A DNA stretch of 64,000 nt from Streptomyces sp. CGMCC 4.7035 (GTDB taxonomy: Bacteria > Actinomycetota > Actinomycetes > Streptomycetales > Streptomycetaceae), in contig NZ_CP134053.1 of NCBI RefSeq assembly GCF_031583065.1, forward strand, positions 3,162,001 to 3,226,000. Reading direction: 5' to 3'. The notes beneath the pieces were generated by a model. It was not told the DNA's origin. It made no database searches and worked only from the letters and a program-made list of their open reading frames with translations. Both the position numbers and the translations under genes were made by a program. This document shows, piece by piece, positions 7,891-24,900 of the stretch (position 1 is its first letter; each line of letters begins with the position of its first letter).

Positions 7891-7901
7891 AGGAGCCCGA
7901 C

Positions 7902-8810: not shown

Positions 8811-8889
8811 TGTCACTCATAGTTGACGTAAGGTTACTTTCAGGTGCCTCGGCGTCAGGCTAGCGTCCCTCGTACGACGTCCGCGCCCG

Positions 8890-9060
8890 GCGCATGCGCG
8901 ATTGCGTGCGGACGAGCCACGGACAACCGCGCGAGCGTGCGCGGACGAACCACGGACAACCGCGCGATCGTGCGCGGATGAGCGATGAAAGCCGCGCGAG
9001 CATGCGCGGACGAGCGACGAAAACCGCGTGATCACGCGCGGAAAAGCCATGCACAACCGC
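8890..9060. repeat. Tandem ~33 bp repeats, each with a G/C palindrome
   Basis: Four clear units begin at 8927, 8960, 8992 and 9024, with periods of 32-33 bp; a degenerate unit lies at about 8890-8926. Each unit starts with an 18-base palindrome-like core (CCGCGCGAGCGTGCGCGG and variants) followed by a 14-15 base linker such as ACGAACCACGGACAA. In the last unit the core contains the perfect palindrome CGCGTGATCACGCG. The array fills most of the gap between sucD and the aldehyde dehydrogenase. It is not a CRISPR array because linkers are as conserved as cores. Possible roles are a multi-site protein-binding region or an RNA stem-loop series in the leader of the downstream gene. Confidence 0.75.
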
Positions 9061-9092
9061 CCCCGACTGTGCACCGAGAGCGGAGCAATCGA

Positions 9093-10634
9093 ATGGCACC
9101 CACCCTCACCCTCAAATCCGGAACATCCTGGGCCGACGCCTGGCGGCGCTGCGTCGCCGTCGCCCCCGAGGCCTTCCGCGACGACCGTGTCCTCAACCTC
9201 TGGGACTCCTCCTGGCAGGCGGACGGCCGCGCGCTGCCCGCCACCAGCCCCGTCGACGGCACCCCGATCGCGGGACCGCCGCGCCTCGACCGGGCGACTG
9301 CCCGGCGGGCCGTGCGGGCGGCGCTGGACCGGCACCGCGCCTGGCGCCATGTGCCGCTGGCCGAACGCCGCGCCCGGGTCGCCGCGACCCTCGACGCGCT
9401 CACCGAACACCGCGAACTGCTCGCGCTCCTCCTCGTCTGGGAGATCGGCAAGCCATGGCGGCTGGCGCAGGCCGACGTGGACCGGGCCATCGACGGAGTG
9501 CGCTGGTACGTCGACGGAATCGAACCGATGATCGGCGACCGGGGCCCGCTGGACGGCCCGGTCTCCAACATCGCGAGCTGGAACTACCCCATGAGCGTCC
9601 TGGTCCACGCGATGCTGGTCCAGGCCCTGGCGGGCAACGCGGTCATCGCCAAGACACCGACCGACGGCGGTGTCGCCTGCCTCACCCTGGCCTGCGCGCT
9701 CGCCGCACGCGAGGGGATCCCCGTCACCCTCGTCAGCGGCAGCGGGGGCGAGCTGTCCGAGGCGCTGGTGCGGGCGCCGGAGATCGGCTGCGTCTCCTTC
9801 GTCGGCGGCCGCGACACGGGCGCCGCGGTGGCCACGGCCGTCGCCGACCTCGGCAAGCGACACATCCTCGAACAGGAGGGACTCAACACCTGGGGCATCT
9901 GGAACCACACGGACTGGGACGCGCTCGCGGCCGTCATCCCCAAACTCTTCGACTACGGCAAACAGCGCTGCACGGCGTATCCCCGCTTCGTCGTCCAGCG
10001 GTCCCTGTTCGACGAGTTCCTTGCGGCGTACCTGCCGGCGGTCCGCTCCCTGCGCGTCGGGCATCCGCTCGCCGTGGAGCGGCGTGAGGACCCCTGCCCC
10101 GATCTGGACTTCGGTCCGGTGATCAACGCGGCCAAGGCGAAGGAACTGGCCGACCAGGTCGCCGAGGCGATCGACCGAGGCGCGGTCCCGCTGCACCGCG
10201 GCAGGCCCGCCGACGCGCGCTTCCTGCCCGGCCAGGACACATCGGCGTACGTCCAGCCGGTCACGCTCCTCAACCCGCCCCCCTCCTCGCCCCTCCACCA
10301 CGCGGAGCCGTTCGGCCCGGTCGACACGATCGTCCTGGTCGACACGGAGGCGGAGCTGCTGGCCGCGATGAACGCGTCCAACGGTGCGCTGGTCGCCACG
10401 CTCTCCACGGACGACAGCGCGACGTACGACCGACTGGCCCCGCACATCCGCGCCTTCAAGGTCGGCCACGGCAAGCCGCGCTCGCGCGGAGACCGCGACG
10501 AACTCTTCGGCGGCTTCGGCGCGTCCTGGCGCGGCGCGTTCGTGGGCGGCGAGCTCCTGGTCCGCGCGGTGACTCAGGGGCCGGCGGGGGAGCGGCTGCC
10601 CGGGAACTTCCCGGAGTACCAGCTCATGCCGTGA
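9093..10634 (+). CDS. Aldehyde dehydrogenase family protein
   Basis: NAD(P)-dependent aldehyde dehydrogenase superfamily protein, 513 aa. The NAD-binding half includes PVSNIASWNYPMSVLVHAML and AGNAVIAKTP. The catalytic base motif is LEQEGLN in place of the usual LELGG, and the nucleophile is the Cys of GKQRCTAYP. These departures put it in an atypical branch, so the substrate is uncertain; in an oxalate/glyoxylate context a small oxo-acid or aldehyde is plausible. The ATG at 9093 was chosen because residues upstream come from the repeat array. The stop overlaps the convergent LLM oxidoreductase gene by 11 bp. Its expression may be influenced by the repeat array directly upstream. Confidence 0.85.
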   Translation: MAPTLTLKSGTSWADAWRRCVAVAPEAFRDDRVLNLWDSSWQADGRALPATSPVDGTPIAGPPRLDRATARRAVRAALDRHRAWRHVPLAERRARVAATLDALTEHRELLALLLVWEIGKPWRLAQADVDRAIDGVRWYVDGIEPMIGDRGPLDGPVSNIASWNYPMSVLVHAMLVQALAGNAVIAKTPTDGGVACLTLACALAAREGIPVTLVSGSGGELSEALVRAPEIGCVSFVGGRDTGAAVATAVADLGKRHILEQEGLNTWGIWNHTDWDALAAVIPKLFDYGKQRCTAYPRFVVQRSLFDEFLAAYLPAVRSLRVGHPLAVERREDPCPDLDFGPVINAAKAKELADQVAEAIDRGAVPLHRGRPADARFLPGQDTSAYVQPVTLLNPPPSSPLHHAEPFGPVDTIVLVDTEAELLAAMNASNGALVATLSTDDSATYDRLAPHIRAFKVGHGKPRSRGDRDELFGGFGASWRGAFVGGELLVRAVTQGPAGERLPGNFPEYQLMP

Positions 10635-11568
10635 GGGGCGGCCGGGTGGCGCGCGCGTGCGGCGGGCGCCACCCGGCGATGATCTCGTCGGCCAGCCATC
10701 GGGCGACGCCCCACGGGTAGGGGCGGGGCAGATTGAGCACGATGTGGTTCATCCCCGCGGCGACGAGCTCCTCCACCGTCGCGCGCGTCGCGGCGGGGTC
10801 GTCGTACGACACGACGAGCTGCACCGACCGCCTGATCTCGCGCGGATCACGCCCGAGGTCTGCGCAGTGCGCGTCGAGCACCCGCCCGCGTTCGGCGATG
10901 AACTCCACGCGGTTGTGCGGCGGCCCGGGGATGTTCCAGACGTCGGCGTGCTCGGCGACAAGCCGTAGCAGGCGGGTTCCCCAGCCGCCGATCAGCAGTG
11001 GCGGGCCCGGCCGCTGCACGGGCTTGGGCTCGCATCGCGTGCCCTTCAGCCGGTAGTGGCGCCCCTCGAAGTCGAAGACGTCACGCGTCCACATGCGCTT
11101 GAGGATCTCGACGGTCTCGCCGAGCCGGGCGATCCCCTCACCCGGCGGGACCAGCGTGAGCCCGTACGCCTCGTACTCGGCGATCGCCGGATTCTCCCCG
11201 GCGATCCCGCCCGCGCCGGGCGGCTGATGGGTGCCCCCGACACCGAGCCCCACGACGAGCCGCCCCCCGGAGACCACGTCCAGGGTGGAGGCCATCTTCC
11301 CCAGGACCGCGGGCGGGCGGACGCGGTTGCTGGTGACAAGCACGCCGAGGCGCAGCCGCCGGGTCTGTGCGGCCAGGGCGGCGAGCAGCGTCCAGCTCTC
11401 GAGTGCCTGCCCGTCCTTCGGCCCCGCGATGGGCAGCAGGTGGTCCCAGAGCCAGGCGTCCTCGATCTCGGGCACGGCGTCGGCCTCCAGCCAGACGCGG
11501 CGGATGTCCTCGTAGGAGACGTGCATGGGGGCGGTCTTGATACCGAAGCGCACATCAGTCATGTTCAT
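10624..11568 (-). CDS. LLM-class (luciferase-like) F420/FMN oxidoreductase
   Basis: Luciferase-like TIM-barrel oxidoreductase, 314 aa, of the type that in actinobacteria often uses F420. Landmarks are the start VRFGIKTAPMHVSYEDIRRVW, LRLGVLVTSNRVRPPAVLGKMA, the loop VVGLGVGG, and a substrate-domain segment ending PPLLIGGWGTRLLRLVAEHADVWN. The start is ATG at 11568 or 11562. It is divergent from a marR gene 55 bp away, the common arrangement of a MarR repressor with its target. The 3' end overlaps the aldehyde dehydrogenase tail-to-tail. The cofactor and substrate are not determined by the sequence. Confidence 0.85.
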   Translation of the reverse strand: MNMTDVRFGIKTAPMHVSYEDIRRVWLEADAVPEIEDAWLWDHLLPIAGPKDGQALESWTLLAALAAQTRRLRLGVLVTSNRVRPPAVLGKMASTLDVVSGGRLVVGLGVGGTHQPPGAGGIAGENPAIAEYEAYGLTLVPPGEGIARLGETVEILKRMWTRDVFDFEGRHYRLKGTRCEPKPVQRPGPPLLIGGWGTRLLRLVAEHADVWNIPGPPHNRVEFIAERGRVLDAHCADLGRDPREIRRSVQLVVSYDDPAATRATVEELVAAGMNHIVLNLPRPYPWGVARWLADEIIAGWRPPHARATRPPLTA

Positions 11569-11623
11569 CAGCTTAATAAATCATCAGTCGAGCTGACTAT
11601 CAGGGGTCGGTACAGTTCTCGCC

Positions 11624-12073
11624 ATGGCCCGCCAGCATGCCCCCACGCCCCTCGAGTCCCGGCTCGGCTACCTCCTCAAGCACGCGCAGCTGCGCCTGGC
11701 CCGCGCGTCGGCCGAGACGCTCGCGCCCTTCGGGGTCGACGGACACGAGTTGGCCGTCCTGGTGGTCATCGCCGGCGACGAGCCGCTGTCCCAGATCGAG
11801 GTGGGCGCTCGGCTCGGTGTCGACCGGACCACGATGGTGGCGCTGATCGACGGCCTTGAGGACCGCGGCCTGGTCGAGCGCAGGCGCAGCCCCCGGGACC
11901 GGCGCAAGAACATCGTCGGGCTGACGGCGGCGGGCGAGGACTGCCTGCGCCGGGGCGAGGAGGCGCGCCGCGAGGCGGAGCGCCGCTTCCTGGCTCCGCT
12001 GGACGAGGAAGAGGCGGCCTCGCTCGTACGGGCCTTGCAGGTCCTTGTGGCGACGGAACGGTCCGCAGAGTGA
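11624..12073 (+). CDS. MarR-family transcriptional regulator
   Basis: Winged-helix regulator of 149 aa. The recognition region LSQIEVGARLGVDRTTMVALIDGLEDRGLVERRRSPRDRRKN is the standard MarR helix-turn-helix plus wing; dimerisation helices flank it. It is transcribed divergently from the LLM oxidoreductase. The shared 55 bp intergenic segment is A/T-richer than its surroundings (TTAATAAATCATCAG) and contains AGTC-N5-GACT, a candidate operator for both genes. The likely job is ligand-responsive repression of the neighbouring oxidoreductase and of itself. Confidence 0.9.
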   Translation: MARQHAPTPLESRLGYLLKHAQLRLARASAETLAPFGVDGHELAVLVVIAGDEPLSQIEVGARLGVDRTTMVALIDGLEDRGLVERRRSPRDRRKNIVGLTAAGEDCLRRGEEARREAERRFLAPLDEEEAASLVRALQVLVATERSAE

Positions 12074-12229
12074 TTTTTCCGTCACCGAGTGCGAGCGATC
12101 CGGTCTCGGTGTCCCCCGCCTCCACCTCGGCGTTCACGGCGCGGATACGCAGGTGAAAGGCACTCCGAAACCTTGGTATTGTTGTCCATGTCGCCGCGGG
12201 GAAGACCCCCGCAAGGCGGCAGACACCTA

Positions 12230-12314
12230 GTCCGGGTGGCGGAATGGCAGACGCGCTAGCTTGAGGTGCTAGTGCCCTTTATCGGGCGTGGGGGTTCAAG
12301 TCCCCCCTCGGACA
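12230..12314 (+). tRNA. tRNA-Leu, anticodon GAG
   Basis: A complete type II cloverleaf. Acceptor arms GTCCGGG and CTCGGAC pair with one G-T; the anticodon stem CTAGC/GCTAG closes the loop TTGAGGT, giving GAG (reads CTC). A long variable arm (GTGCCCTTTATCGGGCGT region) precedes the T arm GGGGG TTCAAGT CCCCC. No CCA is encoded. The 3' half is overlapped on the other strand by the end of a serine recombinase remnant, marking this tRNA as the integration target of a mobile element. Confidence 0.95.
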
Positions 12315-12810
12315 CAACGCTTGACGATACGGAATCGAGGGCCTCGACCTTACGGTCGCGGTCCTCGTTGCGTGTTTGTAGCCGATAGTGATTCCCAGGG
12401 CCTCGTAGAGCGGACCTTTCTTCTCGGCGACGGCAGTCTGCATGCGCTGTGCAATGTCTCCGAGACTCTCAGTGATCTGCCGGATCTGTTGCGCGTCGAG
12501 CGGGGATTGCTTCTTCCGAGTGACGGCGGGGTGCGCGTCGAGCTGATTGTGCGCCGCGTCCTTGTCCCGCTGGGCCTCGTTGATCCACTGGGTGACGACG
12601 GCGGGGCCGGCTCCGGCGTCGAGGGCCGCCTGGTAGCGGGTGAGCCGCCGCTAGCAGATCGCCTGGCGTGCTTGGGCCTGCTCGGGTGCCTGGGTCTCTG
12701 CGGTGCTTGCTGCGGTGCTGGCGTGGGTGAGGGCTTCGATGGTGGCGGAGAGCCGCTGGGGGGCAAAGGCGCGGGCGATCCATCGGGACTGGGCGGCGTG
12801 CCGGTGGGCG
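12279..12810 (-). pseudogene. Serine recombinase, C-terminal remnant overlapping tRNA-Leu
   Basis: Minus-strand frame encoding the end of a large serine recombinase/integrase. Reading from about 12810: RWIARAFAPQRLSATIEAL, then an in-frame TAG at 12653-12651, then RRLTRYQAALDAGAGPAVV, WINEAQRDKDAAHNQL, a helical stretch to ITIGYKHATRTATVRSRPS, and CPRGDLNPHAR with a TAA at 12281-12279. The RRLxRYxAALxAGA block is the recognisable zinc-ribbon/coiled-coil tail of streptomycete element recombinases. The N-terminal catalytic and zinc domains are gone, replaced by a transposase fragment. The last codons run through the 3' half of the tRNA gene, as expected when an integrase gene abuts its own attachment site. 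Non-functional. Confidence 0.75.
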
Positions 12811-13085
12811 ATGACGTTGTGGTGCCGGCGGAGCACGGTGTCCGGCCGCACTAGCAGCCGTATCCGGCGCAGTACCTCCCGTGGCACGCCATGGAGGAGC
12901 GATGCCAGGAACGCCCGGTCGCTCGCGTGGAACCGAACCTGCTGTCCGTTCAGCTGCCGCTCCAGAACGCCGATCTGGTGGCGCAGGGCCAGGATCTCGA
13001 CGTCTTTCTCACGGTCGCTCATCGGCAGCAGCCGCAGCATCGTGAACGCGTTCGTCACGCTCAAGTACGCCAGTCTCAACAGCAC
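12811..13085 (-). pseudogene. IS3-like transposase/integrase, N-terminal fragment
   Basis: The N-terminal ~90 residues match the start of a common streptomycete integrase-core transposase: MLLRLAYLSVTNAF, LLPMSDREKDVEILALRHQI, VLERQL, and VPREVLRRIRLLVRPDTVLRRH. The catalytic DDE domain that should follow is absent; the frame instead runs directly into the serine recombinase tail. The junction near 12810 marks an insertion-deletion event. No terminal inverted repeats were found. Confidence 0.7.
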
Positions 13086-13396
13086 GACTGATCATCATGC
13101 CGCGCCGACTGCCGCCGCGCGATAGCCGCGACTCGAGCGGCCTCGATTGGTGCCGAAACTCGTTCCCACCCGCATGGATGAGGTATTCGGCAAGAGCAAG
13201 GCCCGGGCGGAGGCGGTGGTGAAGCTCCTATGCCCACCGCCCGCAGGGAGCGGATCGCTTCCACGATGCCGTTCCTGGCTTTCGACGAGCCGGCGGCCCG
13301 CCCCGGCAGGACGGCGATCCCCGCGATCCCGACGGTGAGAGGACATCGCCGTGAGAGCGCAGTCGGCATGGGTGTCGAAGCCGTCGGCCGAAGACG

Positions 13397-13960
13397 ATGC
13401 TTTCGGGGCTCTCAGCGGTCGCCATCGAAGACGTGACGGATGATGTCGATGCGGTGCCGGTCACGGCGTGGAACCGGAACGATCCGATGTCCTGCCCGAG
13501 GTGTGGGACGCCAACAGCGAAGGTGCACGGGCATCATGGACGGACGGTGGCGGAGGTGCCGGTCGTCGGCCGCCGGGCCGTCGTCCGGCTGGGCGTACGG
13601 CGGCTGGTCTGCCCGGTCCTGGGATGTCGGCGGCAGATCTTCCGCGAGCGGATCCCCGGGCCGCTGGAGCGTCATGCGCGTCGGACGGTGCGGCTGACGG
13701 GCCAGATATCCGGGTGGCAGGGGAGTTGTGCGGTCGTGCGGCCACTCGACTCGCCCGCGTTCTGGTCGCGCCGGAGTCCCGGGGTATGGCTCTGCGCCTG
13801 TTGCGGCGCCTGCGGTACCGCAACGGGCGTTCCACCGGGGTCGTTGTCGGCAAGATCAGCCGTGAGGCCCATGACCGTCTGGCGGATATCCGGGAGAGTC
13901 TGGACATGGAGGCGGCCCGCGACCCGTGGCTGCGACCCGCAACTGGCCGCCCTGGCCCAC
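13397..13960 (+). pseudogene. ISL3-family transposase, frameshifted and truncated
   Basis: The first frame shows the ISL3 N-terminus: LSGLSAVAIEDV, a zinc-finger pair in MSCPRCGTPTAKVHGHHGRT, and VRRLVCPVLGCRRQIFRERI. After about 13700 the homology moves to another frame (ELCGRAATRLARVLVAPESRGMALRLLRR), so at least one frameshift is present. The DDE catalytic region (normally VGVDDFALRR and onward) is missing. Non-functional remnant. Confidence 0.75.
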
Positions 13961-14392
13961 CGCGGGCAGGCCCTCTTCTCCCGCGTGCGTCCGCGTAGTC
14001 GGGGTCGGTGGTGCCGATGATGCGGTTGCCCCAGGGCGCAAGTGTCGGTGCGGCCCGCGGTGCCAAGCCCTTCCTGACCTTGAAGTCTCCCGCCCGGATG
14101 TCGCCGAGACCGCCTACACCTGCTCCGCGTATACCAAGACCCCGGTCACGGTGCGGCTGATCGTGCGCCGCGTCCTCGACCCACCCGCGGCTCCCAACTC
14201 CTCCTGGTCACCGCCTCCGGCCGCCATGCATGCGACACCGATCGCACCGATGACTTCACTGAACGGCCTGGCCCGCACCGGCACTCATGGCCCACAACCT
14301 GGGCCGCGCGGTCGGCATCCTCGCCAGGTCGGCCGTATCGACGCGCATTCAGGCCTGACCGGAAGAGATAATCGGCAGCCGCAATGTCGCAG
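13961..14392. other. Degenerate DNA, probably further transposase debris
   Basis: No intact gene. A plus-strand frame reads VAETAYTCSAYTKTPVTVRLIVRRVLD and a shifted frame continues GSQLLLVTASGRHACDTDRTDDF, which has the look of a transposase C-terminal half with frameshifts, but I cannot name the family. Together with the two fragments to its left, this makes 12.3-14.4 kb a stretch of broken mobile elements between the tRNA and the RiPP-like cassette. Confidence 0.4.
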
Positions 14393-14492
14393 AAATTCGA
14401 TAAGATGGCTTTTTGGTTCAATCCGCGGTCTCGGTCAACCGCCTAGGCTTCTGTGCAAGCCGCCACGGGTACGAATTACTAAGGAGCTGACG

Positions 14493-14651
14493 GTGGGCTA
14501 CAACGCGGACATGGGTTTCCCCTGCAAGAGTGCGACGGCCGACTACGGCGTCGTACTGGCGGACAGTGAGCGCGCCTCGCTCGCCTGCATCCTCAGCACT
14601 GGGCTGCAGGAGGGAGAGGTCGATCTCTCGGATTCCGCTAGCTCCAGCTGA
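14493..14651 (+). CDS. Candidate RiPP precursor peptide, 52 aa
   Basis: A GTG start at 14493 sits six bases after a strong AAGGAG, and the frame runs to TGA at 14649-14651. The product begins VGYNADMGFPCKSATADYG and ends EGEVDLSDSASSS. It has two Cys (11 and 32) and many Ser/Thr, mostly in the C-terminal half. It resembles no protein family I recognise. Its size, its own ribosome site and its position 83 bp before a YcaO gene and a SagB-type dehydrogenase suggest a substrate of those enzymes, with Cys/Ser/Thr cyclised to azolines and oxidised to azoles. No double-Gly cleavage site is seen. The ATG at 14511 is a less likely start. Confidence 0.5.
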   Translation: MGYNADMGFPCKSATADYGVVLADSERASLACILSTGLQEGEVDLSDSASSS

Positions 14652-14671
14652 CGGATGACAGTGAGGAATGT

Positions 14672-14705
14672 TGCCGCAGTCGTGCTCTCTGAGCTGCCTG
14701 CGGCA
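14672..14705 (+). promoter_or_regulatory. Stem-loop between peptide gene and YcaO gene
   Basis: TGCCGCAG (14672-14679) and CTGCGGCA (14698-14705) form a perfect 8 bp stem around an 18-base loop. There is no T-tract, so it is probably not a full terminator. Such hairpins between a precursor gene and its modification enzymes commonly let the short upstream message be more abundant. It ends 14 bases before the AAAGGA of the YcaO gene. Confidence 0.5.
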
Positions 14706-14734
14706 CGTTCCGTTGTCTGAAAGGATCATTGATA

Positions 14735-16003
14735 GTGGGAAACGTCGAGGGAAGAGCTGCGAAGAAAACACAGGCCGGCGAGCGAGAAAAGGATCTTTCC
14801 GATGCGTTCCGACATGGCATGGACGCGGCTCGCGCTCTTGGCTTTGATGTTCATATTCGCGCGGTATTGGAGACCGATCCAGGCGCTTGGGCATGTGAGC
14901 TCTGGAAAGGTGAAGAGCGGGTACCGAACGGATCTGGGCTCGGAAAAGGATCCCGGGAGGCGGCGCGTGTCGGCGCCCTTTTTGAGGCACTTGAGCACTA
15001 TGTGAGTGAAAGCGATTACCTCGGCTCCGAGTTGGTGCAGAATGTGTCGGCTCATGCTGTTGCCGACGCCGACGGTCTGCTATATCGCGACCAGGCCGTC
15101 CGCTTGCTCGGCGAATTCGCCGATGAGCCTATCGGGTGTCTGGAGTATCGGGAACTTTGCTCGGGTTTGAGTGTGCCCGTCCCCATTTTTTTGTCCACTC
15201 CAGGATACGTGGATGCCGATACTTCTTTTCGTGCTTCTCTCGGCGACAACTATGACTACTCCGCAGTATGGCGGTACTCCAGCAACAACGGTTGGGCCGC
15301 GGGAGTCACTACAGCCGAGGCTACGGTGCACGCTCTGAACGAGGTCGTGGAGCGCGACGCCCTCTCCCTGTTGCTGATTGGTCAGTTCCTCCGCCGTCGG
15401 CGTAGACCCCTGCGCGTGGTGGATCGGGAGAGTCTGCCCGGGGAGCTTGCGGATCTAGCGGCTTACGCCGAAAAGCTCACCGGCCGGACCGTTTACCTAC
15501 TCGATATGACAACGGACGTGTCAGTCCCGGCTTTTCTGGCCTTCCTTCCGCCGGAAAATGGAATGCCTGCCCGTGTGCGCGGTTGCGGTGCGTCCTTGTC
15601 GTCCGACCACGCAGCGTACCGGGCGCTTACTGAACTCGTCCAGATCCAAGGAGCCATAGCTGCAGGCGCTCCTCCTGCCTCGAACTTCCACCGTGACGAC
15701 AGCATGCTGCCGTACCCGCCCATGCAAGCCTGTCGAAGAGCGGACTTCACCGCCCGACTGCCCGATGCCCATATTGTTCCCTTCAAGTCGACGAGCCCTC
15801 CGGCCATGCCTCAAGCGCACCTCGAAGAGTTGTTGCGCCGGCTCTCCGATCGTGGATACTCGGTGCTGCGTCGTCAGGCGGCGACTCCGGAGGGCCTGGC
15901 CGTCGTCAGCGTCCTGGTTCCAGGCATGGAACGCTTCATGCTTGTGACTGATGGAATTCTGGTGCTCCCCGGCCCCCGTGGGCAGCATTTCATGGAAAAC
16001 TAG
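14735..16003 (+). CDS. YcaO-domain protein (ATP-dependent peptide cyclodehydratase type)
   Basis: YcaO-superfamily protein, 422 aa from the GTG at 14735 (AAAGGA nine bases upstream; a TTG at 14729 is too close to it). The nucleotide-binding motifs are visible: GKGSREAARVGALFEALEHY, GVTTAEATVHALNEVVERD, and ALTELVQIQGA. YcaO enzymes phosphorylate backbone amides to form azolines, thioamides or amidines. The C-terminus ends LPGPRGQHFMEN and lacks the PxPxP tail of classical cyclodehydratases, and no E1/ocin-ThiF partner or TfuA is encoded nearby. Base composition is visibly lower in G+C than in flanking genes, suggesting transfer. With the SagB-like dehydrogenase, azole formation is the best guess. 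Confidence 0.87.
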   Translation: MGNVEGRAAKKTQAGEREKDLSDAFRHGMDAARALGFDVHIRAVLETDPGAWACELWKGEERVPNGSGLGKGSREAARVGALFEALEHYVSESDYLGSELVQNVSAHAVADADGLLYRDQAVRLLGEFADEPIGCLEYRELCSGLSVPVPIFLSTPGYVDADTSFRASLGDNYDYSAVWRYSSNNGWAAGVTTAEATVHALNEVVERDALSLLLIGQFLRRRRRPLRVVDRESLPGELADLAAYAEKLTGRTVYLLDMTTDVSVPAFLAFLPPENGMPARVRGCGASLSSDHAAYRALTELVQIQGAIAAGAPPASNFHRDDSMLPYPPMQACRRADFTARLPDAHIVPFKSTSPPAMPQAHLEELLRRLSDRGYSVLRRQAATPEGLAVVSVLVPGMERFMLVTDGILVLPGPRGQHFMEN

Positions 16004-16125
16004 ACCTTCGGGTCTCTCGACTCGACGGGTCTTCTCGTACGGGCACAGCAGGCCGACAATATCCCGAGCGTTTCTCGGGGTGCGCTCGCGCTGGGCGGGC
16101 ACGAGTCCTGCGCCGGGAGCAGCCG

Positions 16126-16251
16126 GTGTACTGCGAATACGTCCGCTGGACACAGTTTCTGCAACACATCCAGGTCTACGGCGTCAATCTTCCCGCCGCT
16201 GCGGCTGGACCGCCGAATCGGCCGACGCGGTTTGCCCGGAACCTGGAATGA
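16126..16251 (+). CDS. Small ORF between YcaO and SagB genes
   Basis: GTG at 16126 preceded by GGGAG, 41 codons, ending in FARNLE and TGA. The product VYCEYVRWTQFLQHIQVYG continues to a Pro/Ala-rich tail and looks more protein-like than random high-GC translation, but I recognise no family. It might be a second short peptide gene, a remnant of a lost partner such as a leader-binding protein, or chance. It fills part of the 290 bp gap. Confidence 0.25.
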   Translation: MYCEYVRWTQFLQHIQVYGVNLPAAAAGPPNRPTRFARNLE

Positions 16252-16293
16252 CTGAGTAGCGGCATTCCTGATCTGTAGGTCTCTGGAGACGCT

Positions 16294-17796
16294 ATGACCG
16301 ATGCTGATGCTCCGCACTTCTACCGCAATTTTCCGCGCGCAGACGTTTCTGCTTCGGTCCGCGAATACCTGCGTCTTCACCCGAGCGCCCGGTTCGTCGC
16401 AGACCCCTCCGGCACGACTCGGATCTTTGCCGGATATCGCGGAACGGTCCTCGGCGCTTTGTCACCGGGCCTGACTGCGGCTTTGGAATTGCTTGCTACC
16501 CGATCCGTGGACAGAGATGACCTGCTGGACGTCGTCCGAAACCAGGAGGGCGAACCGGCCCTCCTCAAGGTGTCCGAGATGCTGAATCGGCTGCGCGCAG
16601 GTGGGTGGCTCTCGGTGACGCTGAAGACGAACGGAACTCCTCTGCTGACCTTCCGTCCGCTGGGTCCGGCGATACCGGCCGTCCTTGAGCACACCGGTGA
16701 CACGGCCGAACTACGGCTGTCCCGCTTCGCCCTCCTTCGCGCGGAAGGCTCAGGCATCGTCTTGGAGTCGCCCTTGGCTCATGTCGCAGTGGAAGTGCAT
16801 GACCCGTCGCTCGTAGGCCTGTTGGCCTCCTTGTCAGCGCAGCACTCGTCGGAGGCGGCTCCGCATGGCTCCGTTGGTGCGCGCACCTATCCGGTGGAGT
16901 GGCCGGAAGCAGTTCCCGCGGTGCTGAGCGCCTTGGCTCGGCATGGGTTGCTGGTTCCACGAACCAACAGCGTCGAAGGCGAACTACGCTTTGCTCAGTG
17001 GTCGCCACACGAACTGTGGTTTCACAGCCGCACGCGCATCGGACGCCACGACCTGCCCTACGGCGGCACTTACCCCGGCAGGGGAGCCGGAGATCCACTG
17101 CCCGCGGTGCGGCCACCGTTCGATGGCCCCACGGTGAAACTCCCCCGAGCGGACCTACAAGCTTTGCGTAGGAACGACCGCCCCCTCACCGAAGTGCTGG
17201 AGGACCGCCAGTCGCTGCGACTCCACAATGACGCAGTGCCGCTCACCATCACCCAACTCGGCGAGTTTCTGTACCGCAGCGCCCGCAACCGGGGCCGGTC
17301 CTTCGACGGGCCGCAACAGGTGGGCAACCGCCCCTATCCGTCCGGCGGCGGTACGTACGAACTGGAGATCTATCCACTGATCAACCGAGTGGATGGCCTG
17401 GAGCCCGGTCTGTATCACTATGATCCGGAGGAACACCGGCTTCAGTTGCTCGCTCGGCCTGGCCCGGCACTGACGCGCCTGACAGAGATGTCCCGCGTGA
17501 CGGCGCAAATGCCCTCGCCCCCACAGGTTACGCTGCTCGTCACGGCACGGTTCGGGCGAGTCATGTGGAAGTACTCCGCCATGGGTTACGCCCTGTTGCT
17601 CAAGCACGTGGGTGTGCTTTACCAGGTGATGTACAGCGTGGCTACGGCTATGGGGCTGGCGAGTTGCGGCCTGGGCGGTGGCGATTCCGACGCCTTCGCC
17701 ACGGCTTCAGGGCTGTCGTGGGAGACCGAGTCCACCGTGGGTGAGTTTCTACTCGGAAGCCGAGAAACCGAGCGTGACGACGGGGCCCGAGCGTAG
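16294..17796 (+). CDS. SagB/McbC-type FMN dehydrogenase
   Basis: SagB/ThcOx nitroreductase-fold protein, 500 aa, expected to oxidise azolines to azoles with FMN. Residues 1-250 form an N-terminal region with winged-helix-like segments (LLKVSEMLNRLRAGGWLSV); the catalytic nitroreductase domain occupies about 290-490. NRPYPSGGGTYELEIYPLIN and the FMN-site segment SCGLGGGDSDAFA are typical. WKYSAMGYALLLKHVGVLYQ contains the Lys-Tyr pair known to be essential in McbC/BcerB-type enzymes. The long N-terminal extension resembles trifolitoxin-type SagB proteins rather than short McbC. Start ATG at 16294, GGAGACGCT upstream. Same low-GC style as the YcaO gene; no exporter or protease belonging clearly to this pair is seen. 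Confidence 0.85.
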   Translation: MTDADAPHFYRNFPRADVSASVREYLRLHPSARFVADPSGTTRIFAGYRGTVLGALSPGLTAALELLATRSVDRDDLLDVVRNQEGEPALLKVSEMLNRLRAGGWLSVTLKTNGTPLLTFRPLGPAIPAVLEHTGDTAELRLSRFALLRAEGSGIVLESPLAHVAVEVHDPSLVGLLASLSAQHSSEAAPHGSVGARTYPVEWPEAVPAVLSALARHGLLVPRTNSVEGELRFAQWSPHELWFHSRTRIGRHDLPYGGTYPGRGAGDPLPAVRPPFDGPTVKLPRADLQALRRNDRPLTEVLEDRQSLRLHNDAVPLTITQLGEFLYRSARNRGRSFDGPQQVGNRPYPSGGGTYELEIYPLINRVDGLEPGLYHYDPEEHRLQLLARPGPALTRLTEMSRVTAQMPSPPQVTLLVTARFGRVMWKYSAMGYALLLKHVGVLYQVMYSVATAMGLASCGLGGGDSDAFATASGLSWETESTVGEFLLGSRETERDDGARA

Positions 17797-17819
17797 AGCA
17801 CTGGGCTTTGCGCGCGTTC

Positions 17820-17859
17820 GGCTCTGCCAGTCGCACCACGTCAGCGTGGTGAAAGAGCC
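17820..17859 (+). terminator. Stem-loop after the SagB-type gene
   Basis: Inner stem CACCACG-TCAG-CGTGGTG with outer arms GGCTCT and AGAGCC, 24 bp after the dehydrogenase stop. There is no T-run, as is usual for actinomycete stem-loop terminators. It would close the RiPP-like transcript. Confidence 0.55.
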
Positions 17860-18542
17860 GGATCCGCGGCGGTCAGTAGGCGAAGGCTGGGTGACGCTCC
17901 ACACCGATAGCGGGTTCGTGCCGGCCTTTCACCGGGATCGCGTGAGGTGAGACGGCTTCGCTGATCGCCAAGGGCCTGACGGGTCATGACCGGTCGGTCC
18001 AGCGATGGCAGGCCGAGTGCGGCAGGGAACCAACCAGGCTCCTGTGCCTGTGGGGTTGAGACTTCAAACACCTCTCCCTGACGGCACGACAGTTCAAGAA
18101 AATGGCACTTTTGTACAACCTATCATCGCAAGAAGCGACTATCCTCTTCCGTAGTGGCCTCCACCGGGATGCGGACGGTGAAATCAACTAGACGGCAGGT
18201 TTGCAGTGCACGGCCGCCGTCGGCAATGAGAATGTCTTGCACCCATGTGTCTGAGCGCCAATGCATAGCCCGCGGCCGAGTACTTGACCCGCCCGAACCG
18301 TGCCGTGACAAACAATTCTGCTTCAGAAGGAAAGGGTATCTGCGCTGTCATGTGAAATGTCTGTGACAGGCGACTGTGAGGGCGGACCCGGGTCGGACGA
18401 CGATTCCGCCGGCCACCCCGATTTCTTTCATTCCATCTCCGACGCGGCCGACTTTGCGGCGCGTTCGGCGGATCGCCCGGCAGTCACCTGTACCGGAGAA
18501 CGCGCCCTGGGACGTGCCGCCACCTGCTGGAAGGGATATCCC
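17860..18542. other. Long intergenic region between RiPP-like cassette and NRPS cluster
   Basis: About 680 bp without a convincing gene and with A/T-richer patches (for example around 18100 and 18310). An ATG at 18357 is in frame with the MFS gene and would add 62 residues, but that stretch lacks membrane character and the 18543 start has a better ribosome site. The region probably carries the promoter of the NRPS cluster. No regulator binding site could be identified. Confidence 0.4.
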
Positions 18543-19808
18543 ATGCGGTCAATCGCCGCTTTGCTGCCCGCTCCTGGTGCACTTCGGCCGATGGTGGGCA
18601 ACTACCTTGTCGATTCGCTTGGCACGGGGCTCTTCCTGACTGGAGGCGTCGCGTTCTTCATCAAGGTCGTCGGCCTGACGCCGGTCCAGGTCGGGCTGGG
18701 TTTCTCGCTCGCGAGTCTGCTGACGTTCTTCGCCTCGGTGCCCACCGGGTGGCTCGCGGACCGCATGGACGCCCGCAAGCTGCTCATCGTCGTGCACCTG
18801 GTGGAGGCCGTGCTGTTCTGCCTCTACCCGCTGGCCCACTCGTTCTTGGGCTTTGTGCTGGTGGCCTGCGCGACCTCGGTGGCGATCCGGGCGGCCAGCA
18901 CGGTACGGGCGGCCGTGACCGGCGCGGTGCTGGAACCGGAGCGGCGGGTGGCCGGACGGGCCTACCTGCGCTCGGTGTTCAACGCCGGATTCGCAGGCGG
19001 CTCCGCGATGGCGGCCTGGGCGCTTGCCGATGAATCCAACCTGGCGTGCGAACTGGTCATCCTCGGCAACGCGTTCTCCTACCTGCTGGCCGCGCTCACC
19101 CTCATCCCGGTTCCCCCCGTCCCGCCCAAGCCACGCCCGGCCGGGGCGTCGAAGGCGCCCGCCCTCAAGGACGTCCCGTTCGTCCTGCTGACCCTGGTCA
19201 ACGGCATCCTCAGCATCAACGGCATCGTGCTGACCCTCGCGCTGCCCCTGATGATCGTCTCTGGCCACGGCATCCCCCGGCCGCTTGCCGGGCTCTTCGT
19301 CACCGCCAACACGGTGCTGGTGGTGCTGTTCCAGGTGAGGCTGAGCCGGAACACCGACACCGTGGAGGGCGGGGCGCGGGCCCAGCGCAAGGCGGGCATC
19401 CTGTTTGCGCTCTCCTGCTGCGGCATCGCCGCCGCGGCCACCACACACATGCCCGCGATCGCGATCATCTGCCTGGTAGTCGCCGTACTGGTGCTGACGG
19501 CCGGTGAACTGCTGCAGATGGCGGGCAGTTGGGGCATCTCCTACGGACTGGCCCCGGAACACGCGCGTGGTGAGTATCTGGGGGTGTACGCCCTCGGCGC
19601 CGCCTTCGCCGAAACCGCCGGCCCGGCCGCCACGACCTCGCTCGGGGTCGGGCAGGGCACCGTCGGCTGGCTGATGATCGCCGCCGTCTTCCTGCTGGCC
19701 GGGCTGGCCGTGGGTCCGCTGGCCGGAAAGGCGCTGGCCTCGCTGCGGTCCGCAGCGCCCGGCGACGGCGTGCAAGAAGCCGCCGTGGCCACCGGCGGTG
19801 CCGCATGA
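18543..19808 (+). CDS. MFS exporter of the NRPS cluster
   Basis: MFS permease, 421 aa, with about 12 hydrophobic segments. The cytosolic loop between helices 2 and 3 reads TGWLADRMDARKLLIVVH, matching the MFS signature G-x-L-a-D-r. The start at 18543 follows GAAGGG. The stop overlaps the peptidase gene by ATGA (19805-19808), so the two are translationally coupled. It most likely exports the cluster product or its acylated precursor and gives self-protection. First gene of the plus-strand biosynthetic run. Confidence 0.85.
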   Translation: MRSIAALLPAPGALRPMVGNYLVDSLGTGLFLTGGVAFFIKVVGLTPVQVGLGFSLASLLTFFASVPTGWLADRMDARKLLIVVHLVEAVLFCLYPLAHSFLGFVLVACATSVAIRAASTVRAAVTGAVLEPERRVAGRAYLRSVFNAGFAGGSAMAAWALADESNLACELVILGNAFSYLLAALTLIPVPPVPPKPRPAGASKAPALKDVPFVLLTLVNGILSINGIVLTLALPLMIVSGHGIPRPLAGLFVTANTVLVVLFQVRLSRNTDTVEGGARAQRKAGILFALSCCGIAAAATTHMPAIAIICLVVAVLVLTAGELLQMAGSWGISYGLAPEHARGEYLGVYALGAAFAETAGPAATTSLGVGQGTVGWLMIAAVFLLAGLAVGPLAGKALASLRSAAPGDGVQEAAVATGGAA

Positions 19809-20797
19809 CACGCACCCCGCTGCGCGGACACCTCCCGACCTGGTCCGAGCTCCGTCGCCACGCCGTGGACACCGTCGCTGAGCTACGACCGCGCCCGGCC
19901 CCCGATCCACGGGTCGCGGCGGCCCTGGCCGGCATCACCGCCGCCAGGGTGGGACGGCACGTCGAGGCGCTCACCGCCGCCGGGCCCCGGTGGCGTGGGA
20001 ACGCGGAGGCGGTCCTGCACAGTCTCCGGTACTTGCGGGAGGAACTTGAGGGGTACGGCTACGACGTCCGCGAGCAGCGGTACGGCGAGGCCCCGCATCA
20101 GGTCAACCTCTCCGCGCTGCTTCCGGGGCGGGACAGCACGGCGCCGCTGGTGGAAGCCGGCGCGCACTGGGACTCAGTCGAGGGCAGCCCAGGAGCGGAC
20201 GACAACGCCAGCGGTGTCGCCGGCGTGCTGGAGATCGCCCGCGCTCTGTGGGAGGCGCCGCGGCCGCGGCGCGGCATCCGGTTCTGTCTCTTCGGCGAGG
20301 AGGAGGAGTGGATGACCGGCAGCACTGAGCACGTCGCCAGGGTGGACGCCGCGGGCGCGGCGGTGGAGGGGGTGATCGTCCTGGAGATGATCGGCTACCG
20401 CGACCCGCTGCCGGGTTCGCAGAGGACACCGCTGCGCGTTCCCGGGGTGTTCTCGCCACCGCGGACGGGCGACTTCGTAGCCGTCATCGCCGACCTACGC
20501 TCGCTCAGGTTCGTCAGCGCGATGCAGCGGGGGAGCCGGCACTACGTTCCCGGGCTGCGGATCTACCCGGTGAAGCGGATCGGGTGGCTGCTGCGGGACG
20601 CCGCCCGCAGCGACCACCTGCCGTACTGGCGCAGTGGACGGCAGGGGGTGCTCGTCACCGACACGGCCAATCTGCGGAATCCGCACTACCACAAGGCCAC
20701 CGACACGCTTGCCACGCTCGACCTGGCGTTCGCCGCAGACGTCAGTCGGGCGGTGGCCGGGGCGCTGGCCGAACTGGCGGGCCGGTCCGGCGAATGA
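19805..20797 (+). CDS. M28-family zinc peptidase
   Basis: M28 (aminopeptidase/carboxypeptidase-type) metallopeptidase, 330 aa. Metal and catalytic motifs are all present: GAHWDSVEGSPGADDNASGV (first His-x-Asp and bridging Asp), FGEEEEW (general-base Glu and metal Glu), and NPHYHKATDTL (final His). RSDHLPYWRSG supplies the usual substrate-side segment. No signal peptide or membrane helix is visible, so it looks cytoplasmic. In a cluster whose assembly line begins with a fatty acyl group and an Ala-like residue, it may remove an N-acyl leader from the finished product. A housekeeping or resistance role is possible but less economical given its coupling to the exporter. Confidence 0.85.
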   Translation: MTRTPLRGHLPTWSELRRHAVDTVAELRPRPAPDPRVAAALAGITAARVGRHVEALTAAGPRWRGNAEAVLHSLRYLREELEGYGYDVREQRYGEAPHQVNLSALLPGRDSTAPLVEAGAHWDSVEGSPGADDNASGVAGVLEIARALWEAPRPRRGIRFCLFGEEEEWMTGSTEHVARVDAAGAAVEGVIVLEMIGYRDPLPGSQRTPLRVPGVFSPPRTGDFVAVIADLRSLRFVSAMQRGSRHYVPGLRIYPVKRIGWLLRDAARSDHLPYWRSGRQGVLVTDTANLRNPHYHKATDTLATLDLAFAADVSRAVAGALAELAGRSGE

Positions 20798-20851
20798 GTC
20801 CGGACGACCCATCAAGGTTTCCCTGTTTCCACCCCGTTAAAAGGACCCACC

Positions 20852-21043
20852 ATGTTCGACACCGATGCCCACACCGAATTCCGGACCGTCGTGAACCACG
20901 AGGAGCAGTACTCGATCTGGCCTGTGGAACTGGAACTGCCCGCCGGATGGACGGAGACCGGTTTCCGGGGCACCCGCGAGGAGTGCCTGGAGCACGTGGG
21001 GCGGATCTGGACGGACATGCGGCCGCTGAGCCTGCGGGACTGA
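20852..21043 (+). CDS. MbtH-like protein
   Basis: MbtH-family adenylation-domain partner, 63 aa, full length. The family core is clear: NHEEQYSIWP, LPAGWTETGF, a Cys in EECLEHV and IWTDMRPLSLRD near the end. MbtH proteins bind A domains and are often needed for their solubility and activity. It lies between the peptidase and the thioesterase, upstream of five canonical A domains. AAAAGGA precedes the ATG. Confidence 0.95.
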   Translation: MFDTDAHTEFRTVVNHEEQYSIWPVELELPAGWTETGFRGTREECLEHVGRIWTDMRPLSLRD

Positions 21044-21081
21044 GGGCGGGGAACAAGGACCAGACGGCTGTATCGCGCACC

Positions 21082-21819
21082 ATGAACACCTCCTCGTCCC
21101 CCTGGTGGATCCGGCGGCCCCTCCCGCACGTCGAGCGGTCGCTGGTCTGCCTCCCCTATGCAGGCGGCGGTCCACAGACCTACGAAGGATGGGAGGAGTT
21201 GCTGCCACCCGCGACCGAGGTGCTCGCGGTGACGCCGCCCGGGCGCGGTCGGCGCTTCGGCGAGCCGCCGTGCTCCGACATCCCTTCGCTGGTAGGCCCG
21301 TTGGCGCAAGCGCTGGCCGACGGCGTGGAAGGCCCGTACGCGGTCTTCGGCCACAGCCTCGGCGCCACGGTGGCCTTCGAGCTGTGCCGGGAGATCCGCC
21401 GACGCGGGCTGAAGATGCCCGAGGCGCTGGTGGTGTCCGGGCGGCAGGCGCCCCAACTGCCATGGTCGCAAAAGCCGATCAGCGGCCTTCCGGACCCGGA
21501 GTTCACGCAGGCGCTGCGCGACCTCGGCGGTACCCCCGAAGCGGTGCTGGAGCATCCGGAGCTGATGGGCCTTCTCATGCCCTCGCTGCGCGCCGACTTC
21601 GCCGTCCTGGAGTCCTACCGCCTGGTGCGCGAGCTGCCACTCGACGTGCCCGTCCTCGCGCTGGCGGGCGCCGCCGACCCGCGGGCCTGCGCGGAGCGGA
21701 TGTCCGGATGGGCGGAGCACACGAGCGGTCCGTTCACGCTGTGCACGGTGCCGGGCGAGCACTTCTTCGTGGACACCGATCCCGCCGTCGTGGCCTCCCT
21801 CGTCTCGACGATTCTCTGA
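21082..21819 (+). CDS. Type II thioesterase
   Basis: External alpha/beta-hydrolase thioesterase, 245 aa, that clears misprimed carrier proteins. CLPYAGGG near the start, the nucleophile motif GHSLGA (Ser), an Asp in AGAADPRA and the His in PGEHFFVDTD give the full triad. The length and lack of other domains match type II editing enzymes. The ATG at 21082 was chosen; the upstream in-frame stretch overlaps the MbtH gene in another frame. Confidence 0.92.
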   Translation: MNTSSSPWWIRRPLPHVERSLVCLPYAGGGPQTYEGWEELLPPATEVLAVTPPGRGRRFGEPPCSDIPSLVGPLAQALADGVEGPYAVFGHSLGATVAFELCREIRRRGLKMPEALVVSGRQAPQLPWSQKPISGLPDPEFTQALRDLGGTPEAVLEHPELMGLLMPSLRADFAVLESYRLVRELPLDVPVLALAGAADPRACAERMSGWAEHTSGPFTLCTVPGEHFFVDTDPAVVASLVSTIL

Positions 21820-21931: not shown

Positions 21932-24900
21932 GTGAACAAGGCCACCGACACGACAGCGGCGGCAATCACGCTGGTCGACGTGCTGCGCCACCGTGCCGCC
22001 GACCAGACGCAGCGCCGGGCGTTCGGTTTCCTCCCGGCCGCGGGCGGTCCGGTCCGGGAGCTGACCTACGCCGAACTCGACCGTCGAGCAAGGGAGTTGG
22101 CGGCACGGCTGCAGGCCGACCACCCGGCGGGCAGCCGGATGCTGCTGCTTTACCCGCCGGGCCTCGACTTCCCCGTCGCCTTCTTCGCGTGCCTGTACGC
22201 CGGCATGGTCGCCGTGCCGATGCCACTGCCGACCAGCCGGAAGCGGGCGCAGCGGCAGCTGGCGGCCGCGGCGAACGCGCGTGCGACCGCCTGGCTGACG
22301 GTCGGGGCATCCCGCCGGATGTTGCTCGACCACGCGGGGGGTGCCGAAGCCGGCCCCGTCGCCGTGCTGGCCACCGACGAAGCGCCGACGCACCGCGCCG
22401 AGGACTGGTCGGGGCACTGTCCGGACCCGGCCGACCTGGCGTTCCTGCAGTACACATCAGGGTCGACCGGCAGCCCCCGGGGCGTGATGGTCACCCACCG
22501 CAACGTGATGGCGAACTCCCGTGCCATCCAGGAGAAGTTCGCGCTGACCGCGCGGGACTCGTCGGTGATCTGGCTGCCGCCGTTCCACGACATGGGCCTG
22601 ATCGGCGGCGTCCTCCAGCCGGTGTACACCGGATTCCCCGCCCTGCTGATGCCTCCACAGGCGTTCCTGCGCGACCCCGGGGTCTGGCTGGAGGCGGTCT
22701 CCGAGCACCGGGCCACGGTCAGTGGCGGCCCCAACTTCGCCTATGCGCACGCCGTGCAGCATGTCGACAGGCAGCGAGCCGCGGGTCTGGACCTCAGCAG
22801 CTGGCGGGTGGCGTTCAACGGCGCGGAGCCGATCCGGGCGGAGACCCAGGAGGACTTCGCGAGCGCCTTCGCGGCGGCGGGCTTCGACCCCGGGGCGTTT
22901 TTCGCCTGCTACGGAATCGCGGAGGCCACCCTGCTGGTCACCGGTGCCGTTCGCGGGGCGGGTGCCCGGGTCCTGTCGGTGGACGCCGATCATCTCGCCT
23001 TGCACGGGCGAGCGGTGCCCGTCGTGGAGGGCGGCCGTCGGCTCGTCGGCTGCGGTACGCCGGCCGAGGGCCACCAGGTGCTGATCGCCGACGCCGACGG
23101 CGGCCGCGCGGCCGCCGACGGCACGGTCGGCGAGATCTGGGTCAACGGGCCGAGCGTGGCCGACGGCTACCTGGACGCCCCGGAGGCGACGGGGGCGACC
23201 TTCGGCGGCCGGGCCGACGGGGTGGACGGCGCCTTCCTGCGCACGGGCGACCTCGGGTTCCTGCACGAGGGTGAGCTGTTTGTCACCGGGCGGGTCAAGG
23301 ACCTGGTCATCGTGCGCGGCCGCAACCTCCATCCGCAGGACGCCGAGCGGATCGCCGCAGCCACCCATCCGGGCCTCGACCCGGACGCCGCCGCCGCGTT
23401 CGGCTACGAGGAGAACGCCGCGGAGTCCCTCGCGATCGTGCTGGAGGTGGACCGGTACACCGCCGCCGACACGTTGGCCGGCCTCGCGGACGGCGTACGG
23501 GCCGCGGTGGCCGCGGAACTCGGCGTCGCCGTTGGCTCGGTGGCGTTCACCCGGCGCGGCGGCATCCCGCGCACCACCAGTGGCAAGATCCGTCGGCAGG
23601 CCTGTCGCGAGCAGTGGCTGCACGGTGAGCTGCCGCCGGTCGGCACGGCCGCCGGCGGTGCCGCTGCGGCCCGCTCGGTCGTGGCGGACGGCACCCGCGT
23701 TCCGGACGCTCCCGTCGCCGTGCGGTCCGTGCTGGCATCCGTCGCGCGGCTGTCGGACGGGGCCCTGGAGGATTCGGCAAGCATTTTCGACCTGGGCCTG
23801 GACTCGCTGGGCATGGTGGAGCTGCGGCTGCGGATCCTGGGCGAGCTCGGCGCAGACGTCTCGCTCGCCGACCTGCTGGCCGGTCCCACCGTCGCGGAGC
23901 TGGAGGACTTGGTCGCCGCCGCGCCGCGGACTGCCGCCGGGCAGGCGCCGGACGTGCCGTCCGACCCACGGGCCTCGACGGGCCAGGAGGCGCTGCTGCT
24001 CGCCGACGACCTGGCCAGGGACGACGCCCCGTACGTGGTGGGCCGCGCAGTGGCCTTCACCGGAGAGTTCCGCACGGAGGACTTCCTCGAAGCCGTGCGG
24101 TCGACCGTGGCGCGGCACCCGGCGCTGCGCACGGCTTTCGTGCGGGGGGACGATGCGCCGCTGCGGACGGTGCATGACGCGCTGCCGCCGGAGCTGGCGG
24201 TGGTCGACGCACGGGATCTGGACGAGGCCGAGCTGACCTCGCTGCTGGAGGACGCGGCGTGCCGTCGGATGGACACCGCCGTAGGTCCGCTGGTGCGGGT
24301 CACGGTGGTGCGCACCGGCGAGTCCGAGACGATCGTGGTCTTCGCCGTCCACCACGCGGTGTGCGACCTGCGGTCGCTCGGCCTGCTCCTGGGCGAGGTC
24401 GCCGAGGCATACCGGACGGGTGCCCAGCCGGAGGGCGGAACCGGGGCCCATCAAGATGCGTACGGCGTGTTCGCCGGCCGGCAGCGGCGGCTGGCCGCGG
24501 CCGACGAGGACGACGACCTGCGGCGCTACTGGAGGACGGCGCTGGACGGCGTGCCTCTGGAGCTCCGGCTGCCCATGGCACACGCCCCGCAGGGCACGGG
24601 CCGGGGAGCGGTGGAGCGCTTCACGGTGCCGGCGGAGCTGTCGGCGCGGGTGCGCGCGTTCGCCCAGGCCCACCGGCTCACCGTCAACGCCGTGCTGCAG
24701 GCGGCTCTGCACGCGCTGCTGCACCGCCTCACCGGCGAGGAGCGTGTCGCGGTCGGCACGCCGTTCGCCAACCGCGGCCGAAGGGAATTGCGTGACGTGG
24801 TGGGCTACTTCGTCAACGTGCTGCCGCTGTCCAGCTCCTTCGGTCCGGAGACCACCTTCGTCGCGGCGGCCTCCGCGCTGCAGGCGACGCTCGCCGCCGC

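Follow-up and report, generated by a model that had tools for sequence, protein, structure and literature searches.

A compact three-gene RiPP-type cassette in a Streptomyces genome with probable bottromycin-like precursor logic

Bottromycin (btm/bot), from Streptomyces, is the main example of a YcaO-dependent ribosomally synthesised and post-translationally modified peptide (RiPP) that has its core at the front end of the precursor, and the ThcOx/CyaGox cyanobactin oxidase (PDB 5lq4, 8pz5) acts in cyanobactin pathways that have a leader-type precursor. Here we describe a locus that draws on both kinds of enzyme. In a 64,000-nucleotide stretch of Streptomyces sp. CGMCC 4.7035 (contig NZ_CP134053.1, positions 3,162,001 to 3,226,000; the whole stretch is referred to below as the window), three plus-strand genes encode a 52-residue peptide, a YcaO enzyme and a SagB-type dehydrogenase, and together they form what is, by its sequence, a compact RiPP-type cassette. 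We consider it probable that this is a three-gene RiPP cassette of bottromycin-like logic, apparently imported into this genome.

In bottromycin, according to the available text of the two papers drawn on here, the core is N-terminal and the follower is bound by the modifying machinery (PMC7136475; PMC5103208). The window cassette is like this system in having a predicted N-terminal core that begins Met-Gly ahead of a C-terminal follower, in having a standalone YcaO without a PxPxP tail that falls in the same clade (support 100/100), and in placing a Cys near the core end. It differs in that bottromycin has two standalone YcaOs where the window has one, and in that the radical S-adenosylmethionine methyltransferase and the cytochrome P450 of the bottromycin system have no counterpart among the proteins of ten selected open reading frames (ORFs; 7275 to 21819) that we scanned for domains; beyond those ten, only a nonribosomal peptide synthetase (NRPS) and two other window ORFs were scanned. 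The window, in turn, has a ThcOx-type flavin dehydrogenase and a precursor without a match to the bottromycin precursor model NF033414. Because that model is unmatched, there is one YcaO, and neither methyltransferase nor P450 appears in the ten proteins scanned, the window cassette is not a bottromycin; its likeness to one lies in how the precursor is oriented and in the type of YcaO.

Streptamidine (ami), as described in the available text of PMC8442711, shares with the window an actinobacterial standalone YcaO, a flavin dehydrogenase gene and a small precursor without a Cys/Ser/Thr-rich core. Its YcaO, AmiD, has a proline-rich C-terminus, it has an E1-like partner, AmiB, and a central AmiA core, and most precursors in the family carry ALV motifs, which 22 of 237 lack (PMC8442711). 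Since the window peptide has no ALV motif and the window YcaO has no proline-rich tail, unlike the streptamidine proteins, assignment to this type was rejected. Thioamidation was rejected as well, on zero matches to TfuA (PF07812) in the whole genome, in a search in which one control genome gave a match. A third comparison is with NHLP-like azole clusters in two genomes (G359 and G326), which possess a SagB about 72% identical to that of the window and in the same clade, but in which the YcaO is fused to an E1 domain, whereas the window pairs a bare YcaO with a 52-residue peptide of probable follower type. The combination was not found described in open-access papers, and peptides of this kind may sit unlabelled in published RiPPER networks.

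The precursor gene, probably of follower type, occupies 14493..14651 on the plus strand (GTG start at 14493, stop ending at 14651), and the ribosome-binding site AAGGAG (14481..14486, plus strand) lies 6 nt ahead of the GTG, with hexamer and spacing identical in another Streptomyces genome, G172. The G172 homologue is 73% identical across all 52 residues (E about 1e-22) and stands directly 5' of an 81%-identical YcaO, and Streptomyces sp. NBC_01707 has, on a linear plasmid, an annotated hypothetical gene of 53 residues followed by YcaO and then by SagB. Two other Streptomyces thus have homologous trios. A third, G121, has a more distantly related one, in which peptide and YcaO share one contig and sagB, represented by fragments on that contig and on another, is apparently split over the two. 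All three cassette genes are free of internal stops in three genomes, and the ratios of nonsynonymous to synonymous substitution (dN/dS) between the window and G172 are 0.42 for the peptide, 0.15 for ycaO and 0.25 for sagB; within the peptide, residues 1-16 give 0.11 and the last ten residues 2.3, each on few sites. Because the peptide is conserved in G172 and NBC_01707 beside YcaO, and because its dN/dS is below 1, we regard it on these sequence criteria as a real gene. An earlier note, made from the letters of the window, had proposed just this arrangement of a small ORF with a strong ribosome site ahead of YcaO and SagB, and it is borne out by the conservation of the ORF in the related YcaO-SagB loci of G172 and NBC_01707, by the AAGGAG hexamer and by the matches of the two enzymes to PF02624 and TIGR03605. 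The same note's impression that the peptide belongs to no known precursor class agrees with our searches, in which it matched no curated family; nor did it match PHROGs, and a phage family was rejected on that ground.

The ycaO gene (14735..16003, plus strand) encodes a bare YcaO domain (PF02624, E 2.5e-45), and alignment with the G172 and NBC_01707 proteins makes the GTG at 14735 a likelier start than the TTG at 14729 of the mechanically called ORF. The protein ends in ...LPGPRGQHFMEN, with no PxPxP tail, as the earlier note had read it, and no proline-rich one. In a tree of YcaO proteins, the window enzyme lies in a clade of 19 rows from 18 loci that includes BtmF and BtmE (support 100/100), and the other 22 rows, 21 of which are frames of at least 650 residues, fall apart from it. 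The 18 loci are those of the window, G172, NBC_01707, G121, G352, G097, G074, Nonomuraea, Rhodococcus, G505, G760, G652, G699, G605, G629, Pantoea, Vibrio and the bottromycin cluster in G228. Close relatives are rare: within the genus, matches at E <= 1e-30 occur in 5 of 295 genomes, own included; at E <= 1e-35 one of another 80 genus genomes has a match, as do 7 of 394 genomes of the class, own included; and a profile search at E <= 1e-60 across 198 genomes of the phylum returned the own genome alone. A comparison limited to BLAST took in the YcaOs of another 12 Streptomyces loci, and no member of the window clade stood among the three best matches of any of them.

The window genome holds a single further YcaO match, which lies about 446 kb off and shares its reading frame with an E1 domain (TIGR03882). 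That model has zero matches in the window and three elsewhere in the genome, so the earlier note's statement that the cassette has no partner protein stands for E1 in the window and for TfuA in the genome; its ocin-ThiF part gains nothing from the zero genome matches to TIGR03693, a model to which control genomes were equally silent. The leader-binding partner that, according to the note, known azole RiPP systems usually need is not demanded by precedent, since the bottromycin YcaOs are described as partnerless in the available text of PMC7136475, although an earlier paper has BtmF cooperate with the amidohydrolase BtmI (PMC5103208).

The orientation of the precursor emerges from the clade as a whole. 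Directly 5' of YcaO, each of the 18 loci has a short ORF that starts with Met-Gly (14 loci) or Met-Ala (4) and is preceded by a Shine-Dalgarno (SD) match of 4-7 nt; among 982 small ORFs with an SD match of at least 5 from 40 loci, used as background, Gly or Ala is the second residue in 19%. The motif L[TSA]xxE, which the bottromycin follower carries, is found in the C-terminal half of 13 of the 18 peptides, being missing from a four-member group around G760 and from Vibrio. A profile of the window trio, aligned by hhalign to a profile of the 15 other clade peptides, gave E 0.001 at residues 19-35, with a score of 17.57 against a mean of 7.4 (sd 1.6) for column-shuffled profiles, none of 200 shuffles reaching it; the trio peptides match the others significantly as a profile only, and not singly. 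When profiles were built leaving out one group at a time, the candidate came first in 8 of 18 loci, and the precursor of bottromycin itself ranked 1 of 43 (E 0.019). As a control, the model of all 18 peptides was run against 22 other YcaO loci, where it found nothing below E 0.018; the best stray match, at that value, lies far from YcaO (locus L052), and in a further control, L107, the best match (E 0.53) adjoins YcaO and starts Met-Gln.

Because the clade loci share the Met-Gly/Ala start and a bottromycin-like follower segment, the core is, as far as these alignments go, probably the peptide N-terminus and the remainder a follower. The predicted core, GYNADMGFPC (residues 2-11, after Met removal; 14496..14525, plus strand), ends at Cys11, its boundary being set by analogy with bottromycin, and the follower recognition segment matched by hhalign, GVVLADSERASLACILS (residues 19-35; 14547..14597, plus strand), is presumed helical. 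A Cys stands at position 10-11 in all four loci with a ThcOx-like SagB (window, G172, NBC_01707 and G121).

Some other members of the clade deserve separate mention. The G629 YcaO (L077, 7160 onward) groups with BtmF (support 97/86); its peptide reads GNSNSNGC after Met, with the Cys at the bottromycin position, and an ORF 3' of the YcaO resembles, as judged by eye, a major facilitator superfamily (MFS) transporter. The G605 YcaO (L075, 6658-7998) matches the window enzyme in two reading frames, possibly through an assembly frameshift or decay, and three loci from one other actinobacterial family (L073, L074 and L076) seemingly consist of peptide and YcaO alone, with no SagB match nearby. On Pantoea and Vibrio plasmids (L016, 7661-7792; L017, 7702 onward) a Met-Gly peptide stands directly 5' of a YcaO that also belongs to this clade; the Pantoea peptide is annotated as hypothetical and has a hairpin on its 3' side.

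The third gene (16294..17796, plus strand) encodes a SagB/ThcOx-type flavin mononucleotide dehydrogenase (TIGR03605, E 1.3e-48, residues 319-489) in which HTH_57 and ThcOx domains stand before the nitroreductase domain (PF18679, 32.1 bits with a cut-off of 29.1; PF22767, 71.5 with 27.7; PF00881, 41.7 with 23.5). Residues 54-493 align with PDB 5lq4 at E 5e-70, and W425-K426-Y427 is invariant among 11 aligned SagB proteins. The long N-terminal extension, which the earlier note had singled out, is on these matches (PF22767, HTH_57 and 5lq4) ordinary ThcOx architecture, and it is possible that this part of the protein binds the precursor. As to the trifolitoxin-like systems that the note had named as a possible parallel, PMC8816728 makes no mention of YcaO.

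Outside the trios, the closest SagB relatives are those of G359 and G326, at about 72% identity and in one clade with the window-trio proteins (support 100/100), and a clade of the trio apart from them was not rejected (p-AU 0.325). In both genomes SagB lies 3' of a YcaO of 779-885 residues whose E1 domain exceeds the TIGR03882 cut-off and for which the SagD model falls just under its own, and a G326 peptide scores 48.1 of the 50.9 bits set as cut-off for the NHLP leader model, again just under. Fourteen SagB neighbourhoods were inspected in addition to those of the window, G172 and NBC_01707: ten have a YcaO ORF of 650-885 residues, the E1 domain being model-checked in two of the ten, one is that of G121, and L060-L062 show no YcaO match. 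Because the closest outside relatives of its SagB adjoin E1-YcaO fusions and NHLP-like leader peptides, the window cassette appears to mix two pathway types, combining a bottromycin-type YcaO with the oxidase of an E1-YcaO/NHLP-like azole setting; the SagB appears to be shared with an NHLP-like azole cluster, a hint that oxidases are exchanged between leader-directed and follower-directed pathways.

From gene content, conservation, clade membership and follower homology we infer the following route, every chemical step of which is stated conditionally. Methionine aminopeptidase would expose Gly1, and the follower would dock either on YcaO or on the N-terminal portion of SagB. YcaO would then spend ATP to activate an amide of the core backbone near the N-terminus, so that a thiazoline could close on Cys11 and/or an amidine form with the freed Gly1 amine; SagB would oxidise the thiazoline to a thiazole, and a host peptidase would cut off the follower. 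The likely product would be the N-terminal core carrying a Cys11 thiazole and perhaps also an N-terminal amidine. For GYNADMGFPC the calculated [M+H]+ is 1074.402 without modification, 1054.376 once the thiazole is present and 1036.365 if the amidine is added to it. Since oxidation in bottromycin is the job of a P450, according to the available text of PMC5103208, a flavin dehydrogenase in that role here would be a substitution.

Bottromycin requires two YcaOs and many tailoring enzymes, and a pared-down relative using a single YcaO and a single oxidase would make a tractable system; it could show how a partnerless YcaO finds its substrate via a C-terminal follower, and whether one YcaO makes both amidine and azoline. 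The clade also provides a precursor search rule, namely a Met-Gly/Ala start, an SD match and a position before YcaO, for genes that small-ORF annotation tends to overlook. We put forward, as a tentative and rather doubtful extension, that the window is a member of an undescribed family of minimal follower-type RiPPs, made up of a Met-Gly or Met-Ala peptide and one bottromycin-clade YcaO and seen here in actinobacteria and on Pantoea and Vibrio plasmids. Members would share an N-terminal amidine formed from the freed Gly/Ala amine, and in the window lineage the single YcaO would also close the Cys11 thiazoline, to be oxidised by the NHLP-shared dehydrogenase, whose N-terminal domains would bind the follower.

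Several observations weigh against a bottromycin-like cassette. The peptide starts were picked by eye, so that the comparison with background ORFs is not blind, and for some clade peptides the reading frame offers start codons further 5', most of them with a poorer SD match, though one in G629 has a stronger one. The window peptide has no match in NCBIfam at E 10 and so none to NF033414, a model that the G228 bottromycin precursor matches at 1.4e-33. When groups were left out in turn, the three loci of the window trio reached only ranks 11 of 70, 2 of 69 and 8 of 76. Seven more loci missed first place; among these, Vibrio came 24th of 63 and G652 received no score. The window YcaO matches BtmF at 1.5e-32 and BtmE at 2.8e-7, but every one of the 20 YcaOs in the comparison, among them three fused controls, scores better against BtmF; the preference is general because BtmE is divergent, and since the fused controls likewise favour BtmF we dropped a BtmF-type reaction deduced from these scores. 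BtmF, moreover, was reported to need the amidohydrolase BtmI if cyclisation is to be efficient (available text of PMC5103208). The link between Cys and SagB reflects no more than two independent lineages. In G352 the SagB-like protein is remote and the peptide lacks Cys altogether, and G629 combines a Cys at position 9 with the lack of a SagB match. Finally, the 84%-identical SagB of G172 is encoded on the opposite strand, now convergent to the peptide-ycaO pair. Between the two, which face each other, lies a stretch (L009, 8203-9948) that by eye looks transposase-like.

That the YcaO makes an N-terminal amidine alone, in the manner of BtmF, with SagB in a cryptic or structural role like that of AmiE, would suit the Gly or Ala that follows Met in 18 of 18 clade peptides, the 13 of 18 clade loci with no SagB homologue among the ORFs of the fetched stretch, and the precedent of streptamidine, for which the dehydrogenase AmiE is essential and the product unoxidised (available text of PMC8442711). 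We nevertheless think it unlikely, given the Cys at 10-11 in the four loci with a ThcOx-like SagB (at 9 in bottromycin), the retention of the K426-Y427 pair and the purifying selection on SagB.

The earlier note's assumption of a leader followed by a core, here a classical leader (residues 1-40) ahead of a Ser-rich core (VDLSDSASSS) that YcaO and SagB would convert to oxazoles, is improbable. Five Ser lie in the last ten residues of the window copy, and this is where it differs most from G172, at a dN/dS of 2.3 on few sites, but the tail Ser are not retained, there being 2 in G172 and 3 Ser/Thr in NBC_01707. Relatives stop soon past the shared segment (Rhodococcus ...SLIDQL, G097 ...LGLQQG), and that segment has profile homology to a bottromycin-type follower. 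With two residues only after the shared segment, the Rhodococcus peptide has no room for a C-terminal core, which is therefore excluded there, and the related loci indicate an N-terminal core with a C-terminal follower.

Base composition bears on the origin of the bottromycin-like cassette. Between 14 and 19 kb, GC content is 61-66%, most flanking kilobases having about 70-75%, and an ISL3 transposase remnant with a zinc ribbon (13397-14020) lies just 5' of the low-GC stretch; the two together make the cassette look imported. A decaying cassette without a product, as might be read from the low-GC island, the adjoining remnant, the rearranged G172 locus with sagB on the opposite strand and the want of a transporter or protease of its own, is very improbable, because the three genes have no internal stops in three genomes and own-G172 dN/dS values of 0.15-0.42.

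Between the precursor gene and ycaO, a stem-loop is predicted at 14665..14711 (plus strand). The fold of the 121 bases at 14640-14760 has a z of -1.85, with 8 of 200 shuffles equally stable; for the 113 bases from the peptide stop, the window has a z of -1.29, and 13 of the 18 clade loci reach z <= -1.5, some of these folded stretches taking in the ycaO start. On this modelling the stem-loop is possibly an attenuator or a processing hairpin. A search for sigma-70 promoters found 0, where shuffles expect 0.5. The three cassette proteins gave zero PADLOC matches, and a defence system was rejected on that basis. Between ycaO and sagB, an ORF at 15951-16256 has no NCBIfam match, and a small gene at 16004-16264 was rejected, failing to align in G172.

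We saw neither a peptidase nor an exporter that is conserved along with the cassette, and the MFS transporter (18357-19808) and M28 peptidase (19805-20797) on its 3' side were rejected as members. For the transporter, the stretches retrieved from G172 and NBC_01707 hold only weak matches, in G172 and about 6 kb away; at E 1e-50 the own genome is the sole match for the peptidase among 121; and GC is near 70% again at both genes. Together with a thioesterase (20584-21819) they stand 5' of an NRPS, to which all three probably belong. The NRPS (21932-30319) has AMP-binding domains in three stretches, two condensation domains and three carrier domains, and large ORFs run on beyond it to 46041.

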